Positions 18,275 to 58,597 of a DNA stretch of 64,000 bases are shown piece after piece. The number at the start of each line of letters is the position of its first letter. The first letter of the stretch is position 1. A program made the position numbers and the translations under genes. The stretch covers positions 186,001 to 250,000 of the forward strand of contig NZ_AP019781.1 in NCBI RefSeq assembly GCF_019669965.1, read 5' to 3'. The stretch is from Methanoculleus chikugoensis. GTDB lineage: Archaea; Halobacteriota; Methanomicrobia; Methanomicrobiales; Methanoculleaceae. Under the pieces are notes generated by a model. The model worked only from the letters and a program-made list of their open reading frames with translations, did no database searches and was not told the origin of the DNA.

Positions 18275-18350
18275 TGCGGCAGGGCCGGACCGACCCTGCC
18301 CATGGCGATACTGGAGATATGCGGTTTGCAGTGGAAATGAAGGGGTACAC

Positions 18351-21652: not shown

Positions 21653-21680
21653 CCCCGACCCCTTTGTTTCGTGTGGAGAA
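21653..21680 (-). promoter_or_regulatory. Origin recognition box A (inverted)
   Basis: Read on the minus strand this is CTCCACACGAAACAAAGGGG followed by TCGGGG, the same sequence as box B apart from two bases in the left arm. It resembles the archaeal ORB consensus: a TTCCA dyad, then GAAACxAAGGGG. It faces box B across the AT-rich region next to cdc6. Confidence 0.75.
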
Positions 21681-22120
21681 AGAGAGGGCGCTGCGGGCCG
21701 GGAGACGGAGAGGGTGGAGAGGAGAGGAGCCGGAATACAGGGTTTCCGGAGAAGAAACTCGTCGATCAGGGGGAATTGACGAGATCGCTCTCATGAGGAT
21801 GAGTGGATGGAATGGAGCGGGATAGGTCGGATCAAGGCGAAGATGAGTGGATGGAATGGATCGGGACAGGTCGGATCAAGGCGAAGATGAGTGGATAGAA
21901 TAGAGCGGGATAGGTCGGATCAAGGCGAAGATGAGCGGATAGAATAGAGCGGGATAGGTCGGATCAAGGCGAAGATGAGTGGATTCAGGTCAGGATGGAA
22001 CGTAACAGGACGGGGTTGGAAGGAGATGGGATGAGATGAGGCCGGGAGAGAAGGAATGAAGTTGAGAAGAAGTGGATCGGAACGGTGATCAGGCAGGAGA
22101 TGTGATTGGATCTCTGGCTG
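21671..22120. other. Purine-rich origin segment
   Basis: For about 450 bases the plus strand is mostly G and A, with few pyrimidines. It includes the 44-bp tandem repeat. At about 22110-22140 the bias flips and the plus strand becomes T/C-rich. No plausible gene occupies the segment. Confidence 0.7.
21798..21985. repeat. 44-bp tandem repeat, four copies plus a partial fifth
   Basis: Copies start at 21798, 21842, 21886 and 21930 (period exactly 44), with a partial copy from 21974. Each begins GATGAGTGGAT (GATGAGCGGAT in copy 4) and ends GGATCAAGGCGAA. Copies differ at a few positions, mainly G/A exchanges in the GGAATGG part. It lies between ORB A and the AT-rich region, so it is probably an iteron-like part of the origin. 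Confidence 0.9.
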
Positions 22121-22139
22121 GGTGAACTGTTCCAGGGCT

Positions 22140-22376
22140 ATCTGTTCTCGTTACATCTCTACTGTCTATTTTCCATTAAACTCCTTATTACCGTTTTTTT
22201 TACAAATAAAACTTTCTAATCTCTCCATTATGCTTTTCTGCCACTTTTATCCCTTTATTATCCTTTTAATCTCTTCTTTCCCTCCTATAATCTGTTTTAT
22301 CCCTGATTTTTGCGTTTTCTTTTCTCTGTACTTATACGATAAAACTTTATATCTTGAGTTGCAGAGGTACACATGA
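22140..22376. other. AT-rich candidate duplex unwinding element
   Basis: About 240 bases of markedly AT-rich DNA whose plus strand is T/C-rich, with runs such as TTTTTTTTACAAATAAAAC and TTTATCCCTTTATTATCC. It lies between inverted ORBs A and B and upstream of cdc6, the position expected for the melting region. An open frame through it gives only a low-complexity hydrophobic peptide and is not a gene. Confidence 0.7.
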
Positions 22377-22400
22377 CTATTGTCATCAGTTTTTGAACGA

Positions 22401-22420
22401 ACGATACACCCGTGTATCGT
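22401..22420. repeat. Inverted repeat beside ORB B
   Basis: ACGATACAC and its exact complement GTGTATCGT are separated by CC. The dyad lies 6 bases before ORB B, between it and the AT-rich region. It could be an origin protein site or extrude a cruciform. Confidence 0.65.
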
Positions 22421-22426
22421 CATCAG

Positions 22427-22454
22427 GTTTCCACTCGAAACAAAGGGGTCGGGG
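22427..22454 (+). promoter_or_regulatory. Origin recognition box B
   Basis: TTTCCACTCGAAACAAAGGG followed by GTCGGGG. It is the mirror partner of box A and points towards cdc6. It has the ORB dyad plus G-string layout bound by Orc1/Cdc6 in other euryarchaea. Confidence 0.78.
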
Positions 22455-22531: not shown

Positions 22532-22557
22532 GTTCCACTGGAAACGAAGGGGTTATC
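22532..22557 (+). promoter_or_regulatory. Origin recognition box C
   Basis: GTTCCACTGGAAACGAAGGG followed by GTTATC, the best match to the general archaeal ORB consensus in the window. It lies 75 bases upstream of the cdc6 start and so may also autoregulate cdc6. Confidence 0.8.
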
Positions 22558-22630: not shown

Positions 22631-23914
22631 ATGTCGGACGATAAAACGAGCCCAATGGGGTTATTCAAAAAATACCTGACCAATAGACGTATATTCAAGA
22701 ATAGGGAAGTGCTCCGTCACAACTATCGTCCCCAGATCCTTCCTCACCGGAAGCCCCAGATCGACGAACTCGCCTCCATTCTCGCACCTGCCCTTACGAA
22801 TGAGACTCCCTCAAACATTCTCATCTACGGCAAGACCGGGACCGGAAAGACCGCATCAGCCCGGTACGTCGGGACGGAACTTGAGAACGCGAGCGTCCTC
22901 GCCGGGACGAAGTGCAGGATCGTCCACCTCAACTGCGAGGTGATCGACACCCAATACCGGGTCCTCGCCCAGATCGCGAACGGTCTCGACGACGCCGACG
23001 ATCACCCGAGCGACACCCCCCGGACAGTCATCCCGATGACCGGGTGGCCGACCGACCAGGTCTACATGGAGCTCAAAAACCAGCTCGAGAGCATCGGCGG
23101 GGTCATGGTCATCATCCTCGACGAGATCGACAAACTCGTGAAGAAGAGCGGCGACGACACCCTCTACAACCTCACCCGGATCAACTCCGACCTCAAGTTT
23201 GCGAAGGTGAGCATCATCGGGATCTCGAACGATCTCCGGTTCACCGATTTCCTGGACCCCCGTGTCCTCTCTTCGCTCTCCGAAGAGGAGATCGTCTTCC
23301 CCCCCTACAACGCCCCGCAGCTCTGCGACATCCTCCAGCAGAGGGCGGATATGGCGTTCGTCGACGGCGCGCTCGACGAGACGGTCATCCCGCTCTGTGC
23401 GGCGCTCGCGGCCCAGGAGCACGGCGACGCACGGCGGGCGCTCGATCTCCTCCGGGTCTCGGGCGAACTCGCGGACCGCGAGAACGCCGCGGGCGTGACC
23501 GAGAAGCACGTCCGGATGGCCCAGGAGAAGATCGAGACCGACAGCATGGTCGAGTGCATCTCCACCCTCCCGACCCAGAGCAAGGCGGTTCTCTACGCGA
23601 TGCTGATCCTGGAGCAGATGGGCAAACGGATCTTCACGAGCGGCGAGGTCACGGTGGTCTACCGCGAGATCGCCCGGATCATCGATCTCGACGTTCTGAC
23701 GCACCGCCGGATCACCGACCTCATCTCCGAACTCAACATGCTCGGCGTCATCAACACCCGGGTCATATCGCGGGGCCGCTACGGCCGGACGAAGGAGATG
23801 TGGTTCGACGCAACGACGAGCAAGATCGAGGAGGTCGTCACGCGCGACCCGAGGCTCGATGACGAAAGGCTCAAGAAACTCGATATCAACCGACTGAGAG
23901 CAATGTTCAGGTGA
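22631..23914 (+). CDS. cdc6: Orc1/Cdc6 replication initiator
   Basis: A 427-residue AAA+ initiator that binds ORBs and loads MCM. Walker A YGKTGTGKTA is near residue 67, Walker B VIILDEIDKL near 161 and sensor 1 ISNDLRF near 199. A C-terminal winged helix starts at about 330. The ATG at 22631 follows GGTGA at a spacing of four and gives the usual N-terminus. The frame is open further upstream, but that part is the ORB-bearing leader. Its place beside the inverted ORBs marks this as the initiator of the local origin. Confidence 0.96.
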   Translation: MSDDKTSPMGLFKKYLTNRRIFKNREVLRHNYRPQILPHRKPQIDELASILAPALTNETPSNILIYGKTGTGKTASARYVGTELENASVLAGTKCRIVHLNCEVIDTQYRVLAQIANGLDDADDHPSDTPRTVIPMTGWPTDQVYMELKNQLESIGGVMVIILDEIDKLVKKSGDDTLYNLTRINSDLKFAKVSIIGISNDLRFTDFLDPRVLSSLSEEEIVFPPYNAPQLCDILQQRADMAFVDGALDETVIPLCAALAAQEHGDARRALDLLRVSGELADRENAAGVTEKHVRMAQEKIETDSMVECISTLPTQSKAVLYAMLILEQMGKRIFTSGEVTVVYREIARIIDLDVLTHRRITDLISELNMLGVINTRVISRGRYGRTKEMWFDATTSKIEEVVTRDPRLDDERLKKLDINRLRAMFR

Positions 23915-25687: not shown

Positions 25688-25710
25688 AACCCCTTTATTT
25701 CCACTGGAGA
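25688..25710 (-). promoter_or_regulatory. Origin recognition box D (inverted)
   Basis: On the minus strand it reads CTCCAGTGGAAATAAAGGGG then TT, matching the ORB consensus at nearly every position. It faces away from ORB E. Confidence 0.65.
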
Positions 25711-25905: not shown

Positions 25906-25930
25906 ATTCCACTGGAAATGAAGGGGTCAT
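25906..25930 (+). promoter_or_regulatory. Origin recognition box E
   Basis: ATTCCACTGGAAATGAAGGG followed by GTCAT, an ORB in the orientation of boxes B and C, located 195 bases after box D. Confidence 0.72.
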
Positions 25931-56906: not shown

Positions 56907-58597
56907 GACCCTATCCTTTTTCCCCGACTTCGTTCTCCCTTCCGCTTCCGCTCCGGCAGCCGTTGCAGCCTCTCGTAGTATTTGACCGCATCGGCGGGGC
57001 GGTCGAGGTGGATCAGGGCCACCGCCTTTCCGTTGAGGGCTTCGTCGTCGTCGGGGTTGAGGGCGAGAACCCGGTCGTAGCAGTCGAGCGCCTCCTCGCA
57101 GCGATCCAGGAGCACGAGCGCGTTCCCCTTCGTCGTCCAGGCCTCAACCCTCGCGGGATCGATCTCGAGCGCGTGCGTATAACAGGTGACGGCCTCGCCG
57201 TACCGTCCGAGGACGAAGAGCGCGAGCCCTTTATTGTACCAGGCGTCCGCGTTCTCCGGGTGCATCCGGAGTTCCCGGTCGTAGCAGACGAGCGCCTTGT
57301 CGTAGTGCGACAGAACGGAGAGGACGCTTGCTTTGTTGTTCCAGACCCGCTGGTTCTCCGGGTCGATCTCGAGCGCCCGCTCGTAGCAGACGAGCGCCTC
57401 CTCGTAGCGCTCGAGCTGGTAGAGTGCGTTGCCGTAGTTGTTCCAGGCGATGGCGTTCTCGGGGTGCGCCCTGACCACGGCCCGGTAGCATTCGATTGCA
57501 GCCTCGCAGTCCCCGAGGGCGTAATGACACTCGCCCCGGTAGTACTCCGCGTCGGTATGGCCGGGCTGGAGTTTGAGCGCCTGGCCCAGGCACTCTATCG
57601 CCTCCCCGTACCGCTTCAGGGCGAAGTAGAGCAGGCCTTTCTGGTACCAGATCTCCGCGTCGACGGCGTTCACCCGGAGCGCGCGGTCGAAGCAGGCGAG
57701 CGCGAGGTCGTACCGCTTCAGTTTCTTCAGCGCCGTGGCCTTCAGATACCAGATCCCGGGGTAATCGGGGTTGAGCCGGAACGCCCGCTCGTAGCAGTCG
57801 AGCGCCTCTTCGTAGCGCTCCAGGTTCTGCAGTGCCCGGCCCCGGTTGTACCAGGCCTCGATGTCGTCGGGACGGAGGGCGAGCGCGCGGTCGAAGCAGG
57901 CGATTGACTCGTCGTAGCGCTGGAGCGCCGAGAGCGTGCACCCTTTGGTGTACCAGGTATCGGTGTGGTTCGGGTCGATGGCGACGGCGCGGTCGTAGGA
58001 GGCGAGTGCGTCCTCGAAGCGGGCGAGGAGGGTCTCGATGGTCCCTCTGGCATACCAGGCGTTTGCGTTCCCCGGATCGAGCGCGACCACCCGGTCATAG
58101 CACTCGATCGCCGCCTCGTACCGGCGCTCGCCGGCAAGCGCCGTGCCGCGGGCGAGCCAGGCGTCGATCCGGTCCGGTTCGAGCACGACCACCCGGTCGT
58201 AACACGCGATTGCCTCGGGAGTGAGCCCGATCTTCCGGAGGGCGTGGCCCCGGATGAGCCAGGCGTTCGCGGAGTCCGGTGCGAGTTTCACCGCCTGGCC
58301 GGAGGATCCGGCCGCCTCCCGGTACTCCCTGATCTCGTACATCGCCTGCCCCCGGGCCTGCCAGAACCGGGCACAGGTCGGGTCGATCCTGATCGCCTGG
58401 TCGAAGCATTCGATCGCTCCCCGGTGGTCCCGGGCGCCGGTGAGGGCGAGCCCCTTATGGTACCAGGCGGCGCCGGTGCCGGGGCTCTGCAGAATCGCCC
58501 GGTCGTAGCACTCGACGGCCCGGTCGTACTGCCCTTGCTCGGCGTATGCCCGTCCCTTCCTGCACAAGGCGTCGGCGCTCTTCCAGGGGAGTTCCAT
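56903..58597 (-). CDS. TPR-repeat protein (about 16 repeats)
   Basis: A 564-residue protein consisting almost wholly of 34-residue TPR units, about 16, each like AWYNKGLALFVLGRYGEAVTCY with LEIDPA at the end. The rest is a short basic C-terminus (about 20 residues: RKRKGERSRGKR). It has no signal or membrane helix, so it is a cytoplasmic scaffold. The start ATG at 58597 has no clear ribosome binding site; the frame is open further upstream. Confidence 0.85.
   Translation of the reverse strand: MELPWKSADALCRKGRAYAEQGQYDRAVECYDRAILQSPGTGAAWYHKGLALTGARDHRGAIECFDQAIRIDPTCARFWQARGQAMYEIREYREAAGSSGQAVKLAPDSANAWLIRGHALRKIGLTPEAIACYDRVVVLEPDRIDAWLARGTALAGERRYEAAIECYDRVVALDPGNANAWYARGTIETLLARFEDALASYDRAVAIDPNHTDTWYTKGCTLSALQRYDESIACFDRALALRPDDIEAWYNRGRALQNLERYEEALDCYERAFRLNPDYPGIWYLKATALKKLKRYDLALACFDRALRVNAVDAEIWYQKGLLYFALKRYGEAIECLGQALKLQPGHTDAEYYRGECHYALGDCEAAIECYRAVVRAHPENAIAWNNYGNALYQLERYEEALVCYERALEIDPENQRVWNNKASVLSVLSHYDKALVCYDRELRMHPENADAWYNKGLALFVLGRYGEAVTCYTHALEIDPARVEAWTTKGNALVLLDRCEEALDCYDRVLALNPDDDEALNGKAVALIHLDRPADAVKYYERLQRLPERKRKGERSRGKRIGS

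Follow-up and report, generated by a model that had tools for sequence, protein, structure and literature searches.

A 44-bp tandem array between the initiator sites of a predicted Methanoculleus replication origin is probably a young, species-specific satellite

Within a predicted chromosomal replication origin of Methanoculleus we found a 44-bp tandem array that, on comparison across the genus, appears to be a recently grown, species-specific satellite and not a conserved protein-binding array. The array is restricted to one species, unrelated arrays recur in the same spacer of other genomes, and most spacers in the genus share a strand polarity in which purines give way to pyrimidines.

Results

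Origin locus and its parts

The host genome is a Methanoculleus assembled as a single contig of 2,622,259 bp, and the window is the whole stretch of it that was analysed (64,000 nucleotides). Along the plus strand the locus runs from an inverted ORB A through a purine arm with the array, a pyrimidine and AT-rich arm, a TATA-like element, a palindrome block, ORB B and ORB C to cdc6, with ORBs scored against the Methanomicrobia ORB motif from PMC4164010:

21088-21585, minus strand: moaB/mogA-like gene (ORF list; name read from the translation), the divergent left neighbour of the origin
21658-21677, minus strand: ORB A (TCCACACGAAACAAAGGGGT), inverted relative to ORB B and ORB C, with two mismatches to the motif
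21679-22110, plus strand: purine-rich left arm of the origin spacer, purine fraction (R) about 0.74 (composition)
21798-21984, plus strand: 44-bp tandem array of 4.2 copies, species-specific (TRF, repeat search, genus comparison)
22111-22328, plus strand: pyrimidine-rich right arm, R about 0.27, AT-rich and overlapping the DUE (composition, stability profile)
22253-22352, no strand: likely DUE core; a nearest-neighbour profile gives these 100 bp the lowest stability in the 64-kb window
22346-22352, plus strand: TTTATAT, a TATA-box-like element of cdc6 kept in most relatives (sequence comparison)
22366-22423, no strand: conserved block with two small palindromes (ATGACTATTGTCAT and GATACACCCGTGTATC), between the DUE and ORB B (sequence comparison)
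22430-22449, plus strand: ORB B (match to the motif)
22534-22553, plus strand: ORB C (exact match to the motif)
22631-23914, plus strand: orc1/cdc6 initiator gene, predicted start codon (ORF list, homologues)

The ORB A region and positions 22430-22454 form a 25-bp inverted repeat (96%). As in known archaeal ORB/DUE origins, inverted ORBs flank an AT-rich region directly upstream of orc1/cdc6 and near the GC-skew minimum; unlike those origins, the Methanoculleus spacer measures about 0.4-0.95 kb, has a polarity switch and undergoes array turnover. None of the six genome-wide matches to the ORB pattern is more than 8 kb from the cdc6 origin locus, and cumulative GC skew, on a curve built from a ~30% sample of the genome, has its minimum at or near the window and its maximum near 1.56 Mb, about half of the 2.62-Mb chromosome away. 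These features give in silico support, short of proof, for an active chromosomal origin. Relatives of cdc6 were encoded in 240 candidate stretches, and orthologues were present in 33 of the 35 genus genomes. The palindrome block is preserved in nearly all Methanoculleus while the neighbouring spacer changes, and is a candidate site for a regulator or origin factor.

ORB matches also occur further out. A second inverted pair of perfect matches (25689-25708, minus strand; 25908-25927, plus strand), flanked by an aminotransferase gene and a purA-like gene, lies about 3.06 and 3.28 kb past the cdc6 start and was found with near-equal spacing in almost all Methanoculleus loci scanned; the second member in L026 is about 1.07 kb from the first, compared with the usual distance of about 0.22 kb. 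Judged by sequence, this pair may titrate the initiator or act as a second origin element. On the other side of the origin, an ORB match with one mismatch to the Methanomicrobia motif (18327-18346, plus strand) sits at a gene boundary upstream of a helicase-like gene, and L020 and L022 likewise have ORB matches at -3.7 to -3.8 kb of cdc6.

The 44-bp array

TRF placed the array at 21798-21984 of the window with a period of 44, 4.2 copies, 94% matches, zero indels and a score of 325, and a repeat search gave spacings of 44, 44 and 44 between copies. Four full copies (21798-21841, 21842-21885, 21886-21929 and 21930-21973) are followed by a partial fifth (21974-21984), and relative to copy 1, copies 2, 3 and 4 carry 2, 2 and 3 substitutions, respectively. 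The first-pass annotation had described four copies and a partial one over 21798-21985; the period, copy count and start agree with ours, while the end falls at 21984. It had also set the array between ORB A and the AT-rich region, inside the origin, and considered it unexplained by ORBs, and both points were confirmed, with no ORB-like match inside the array at three or fewer mismatches. Across 1000 first-order Markov resamples of the spacer, in which the dinucleotide frequencies of each arm were kept separately, TRF scores peaked at 88, and 0/1000 were at least 100.

Coding sequence or a small ORF was rejected as an account of the array, whose period is no multiple of 3 and whose overlapping ORFs are all tiny; structured RNA was rejected for want of a credible Rfam match, and a viral source of the unit was rejected on the absence of an exact match in viral contigs. 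The window's only other array scoring above 100 is a 102-bp repeat (57234-57465, score 219) within a 731-aa ORF, which probably encodes a repeat protein.

Restriction to one species

Relatives were compared using collections with one genome per species, many of them metagenome assemblies. An 88-bp query of two units matched only the origin array in the host genome and had no match at E ≤ 0.001 in the other genus genomes, such that the unit was found in 0/34 genus-mates, yet nearly all of these have a cdc6 that is 89-99% identical. The sister species L085 has a 99% identical cdc6 and the same ORBs, and its spacer is about as long, but it has no array. At the position of copy 1 it has the start of one degenerate copy, GATGAGTGGATGG, directly after the conserved CTCATGAG, followed by other sequence plus weak, different repeats. 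Between the window and L085, 148 of 648 aligned spacer sites differ (23%), plus gaps, compared with 15/302 sites in the flank on the cdc6 side (5%) and 17/400 on the moaB side (4%). The first-pass annotation had itself proposed that a neutral satellite would be indicated should close relatives with a normal origin lack the array, and the comparison revealed that they do lack it.

Unrelated arrays in origin spacers

Strong tandem arrays (TRF score at least 150) were present in 12 of the 25 Methanoculleus origin spacers that were bounded by both anchors, one of which (L015) was shortened by a false anchor and is also without an array in its full upstream region. Control intergenic regions drawn from the host genome and genus-mates had arrays in 1/96, 2/142 and 3/190 cases (1-3%) at three coding cut-offs, and the difference from origins gave Fisher p of about 1e-6 to 1e-10, values that make the evidence look stronger than it is, as the species are related and the counts carry no correction for phylogeny. 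Pairwise comparison sorted the arrays into about ten unrelated families; apart from a few weak matches, homology was clear only among members of small groups, which argues that array births were largely separate. Array location is non-random, though array sequence is random.

TRF periods of the purine-rich arrays were 44/88 (L092), 46 (L007), 45 (L024), 41/56 (L011), 74 (L006), 81 and 31 (L090) and 59/84 (L106), while pyrimidine-rich arrays had periods of 42 (L007, L009, L010, L016 and L109), 50 (L012) and 60 (L018). A universal 42-44 bp period was rejected, given origin periods of 41-88 and noncoding arrays elsewhere that also cluster at 45-50.

Beyond the genus, spacer arrays were found in four of seven origins of a sister family (cdc6 identity 78-79%) and in single members of two more families of the order, and the family with the most Methanoregula-like loci had short spacers and almost no arrays. 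L205, from another family of the order, carries a 127-bp array of 5.2 copies (score 1179) at -1494 to -832 of cdc6. Among other cdc6-like genes of the host genome, the stretches of two (L125 and L144) contained no noncoding array.

Purine/pyrimidine polarity of the spacer

In most core Methanoculleus spacers, whether or not they carried an array, purines prevailed in the left part and pyrimidines in the right. When polarity was defined as R > 0.55 in the left half and R < 0.36 in the last 150 bp, 20 of the 25 spacers qualified, the remainder being three near misses with a left R of 0.54 (L017, L108 and G001w), the shortened L015 and the basal, short L022. The switch in the window lies at about 22111-22136, at the edge of the DUE, where R changes from 0.71 to 0.24 (at 22136), and no purine-to-pyrimidine switch across 1.22 Mb of genus DNA is larger, the contrast being 7 standard deviations off the mean. 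To the right of the origin the leading strand of the genome has an excess of G, which runs against the sign of the switch, so that the polarity is not an extension of ordinary replication skew. Basal genus members, most other genera and most Methanoregula-type origins lacked it.

Base identity in the right arm was autocorrelated at about 11, 21, 31, 42, 50 and 63 bp, a signal that was weaker but present when arrays were masked, and the arm had a spectral peak at 9.8-10.4 bp of about twice the height in control intergenic DNA, which was also slightly raised there. As the sequences are related, this phasing at about 10 bp is suggestive only. The right arm of L092, L007, L015 and L109 can be read as a degenerate 21-bp repeat that ends in TGTAC/TGCAC-like steps and extends up to the cdc6 TATA element.

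Strong selection on purine/pyrimidine identity was rejected, as the Ts/Tv ratio in the spacer was only slightly above that of the flanks. A cruciform formed by pairing of the arms was also rejected: in most of 14 origins complementarity was no better than in composition-matched shuffles, only L006 and L106 beating every shuffle and L112 equalling the best one. That polarity is kept through sequence turnover favours the view that either selection or a bias in local duplication maintains it.

Discussion

We consider it likely that a single-copy seed gave rise to the array, as a satellite, through slippage or unequal recombination, and that the spacer in which this took place is not read by sequence. 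The seed would have been a single degenerate copy, which would still be at the same place in the sister species L085, and stepwise tandem duplication, through replication slippage or unequal recombination, would have turned it into the 44-bp array with no sequence-specific protein required. The spacer would be free in sequence and fairly free in length, with strand polarity kept in most Methanoculleus as purines on the ORB A side and pyrimidines through the DUE to the cdc6 promoter. Arrays that grow and decay in either arm would copy local purine- or pyrimidine-rich sequence, by which the bias would be refreshed. We infer both that slippage or recombination was the source of the array and that composition, not sequence, is the property kept in the spacer. 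Some observations run counter to this account: the spacers of L008 and G006w differ at 12% of sites with zero indels, such that the spacer is not always slippage-prone, and pure slippage predicts neither the several periods near 42-46 nor the 9.8-10.4 bp periodicity of the right arm. The weak excess of transitions likewise counts against composition being kept by selection.

Rep proteins bind plasmid iterons and regulate firing, and the first-pass annotation had called the array iteron-like, which would mean that each 44-bp unit is a recognition site for a DNA-binding protein of this species that controls when the origin fires. The position of the array inside the origin, between ORB A and the DUE, and the good conservation of its copies, with 2-3 differences each, agree with such a role, and origin repeats can matter in other archaea, as in Haloarcula hispanica oriC1, where a G-rich inverted repeat inside each ORB acts as an enhancer (reviewed in PMC4010727). 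The iteron label was not supported, however, as the unit is missing from every genus-mate, including the sister species with its nearly identical Cdc6 and normal ORBs, contains nothing resembling an ORB, and has counterparts elsewhere in the genus with other periods and, for the most part, unrelated sequences; we regard functional iterons as improbable. The accompanying argument that proteins bound to successive units would share one face of the helix is weak, since 44 bp corresponds to 4.19 turns at 10.5 bp per turn, a rotation of about 70 degrees per unit, and it is also countered by array periods of 41-88 bp in relatives. Arrays with periods of 45-46 elsewhere in the host genome (L120:2052-2210, L130:7818-8292 and L142:3806-3905) raise the alternative that the origin array is a local copy of dispersed, REP-like palindromic intergenic repeats. 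Those units are palindromic (of the GGTGCTCATGCTCCGTTCCTACGGAACG type) and occur in several places, whereas the origin unit is non-palindromic and occurs in one, and sequence comparison refuted membership in this family, leaving a chance that is close to nil. Short-read assemblies may miscount repeat copies, but the genome is a single contig and many independent assemblies, of isolates and of metagenomes, show unrelated arrays at this site, and an assembly artefact is very improbable.

A reading compatible with satellite origin, so that its probability is not exclusive of that account, is that such an array is one means by which a functional and polar spacer, independent of its sequence, is built, with arrays tolerated or favoured as keepers of composition; we see this as possible but hold it tentatively. 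Archaeal MCM moves 3'-5', and because the top strand has purines on the left and pyrimidines on the right, both MCMs would track the purine-rich strand. Each outgoing MCM would then have a purine-rich tracking strand (the leading-strand template), while the pyrimidine-rich excluded strand would suit melting and primase starts, and phased tracts may add bending. Polarity in most of the spacers despite sequences that are largely unalignable between clades, the strength of the switch and its place at the DUE edge, its sign opposite to the leading-strand G excess, and a right-arm periodicity that survives array masking are all consistent with a polar spacer. On the other side, the basal genus members and most Methanoregula-type origins do without polarity, which is therefore unnecessary for ORB origins generally; Ts/Tv is just slightly above that of the flanks; and MCM tracking and primase preference are properties that we infer for the Methanoculleus origin. 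A more specific version, which we think rather doubtful, is that the DNA between ORB A and the cdc6 promoter carries a polarity code instead of a sequence code, in which a helically phased pyrimidine arm meets a purine arm at the DUE edge and sets the opening site and the MCM exit strands, with array turnover maintaining the code even as the sequence itself is lost.

Among known systems, the satellite reading has its closest parallels in prokaryotic minisatellites and VNTRs, intergenic tandem repeats with units of tens of bp, which are likewise head-to-tail and noncoding, with few substitutions, a period indivisible by 3 and a species-specific unit that the sister species lacks or has as a single copy; a lineage-restricted expansion from a single-copy seed, as seen here, is characteristic of them. 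A purely neutral minisatellite would be expected, though not by strict definition, to have no preference for functional sites, and the Methanoculleus arrays differ in being strongly concentrated in one functional site, the origin spacer, where unrelated ones recur across the genus and in other families. Like plasmid iterons, the array consists of direct repeats inside a (predicted) origin beside the DUE; unlike them, its unit is not conserved together with the initiator in close relatives and has no known binder. The Picrophilus plasmid pPO1 also has tandem repeats and a presumed Orc1/Cdc6 origin, with one listed purine-rich unit of about 41 nt, but it is an AT-rich plasmid whose tabulated description gives neither comparative data nor an ORB-to-ORB placement (PMC3177234). 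The ucm element of Sulfolobales, bound by UBP, resembles the array as a non-ORB element between ORBs in the DUE but is a short motif conserved across species, which the 44-bp unit is not (PMC12141716). Apart from ucm, the inter-ORB DUE of Sulfolobus islandicus oriC1 is largely insensitive to mutation (PMC12141716), which fits a spacer that is free to diverge. The first-pass annotation had judged such arrays not to be standard parts of archaeal origins, and this agrees with reviews whose lists comprise ORBs, an AT-rich unwinding region and haloarchaeal G-rich elements (PMC4010727, PMC3528665). In the literature searched, which lay outside most subscription journals, we came across no description of Methanomicrobiales origins that mentioned either tandem arrays or a purine switch.

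These results caution against taking an iteron-like array in a single genome as evidence that a binding site exists. Noncoding DNA at origins would be expected to rank with the best conserved; in Methanoculleus, the stretch between the ORB initiator sites changes at about five times the rate of its flanks, and unrelated satellites arise there repeatedly while the strand-composition switch persists. This contrast separates what an archaeal origin must keep, namely ORBs, the DUE and perhaps polarity, from what is dispensable, and some 25 to 30 origins form a natural series on which that distinction can be tested.
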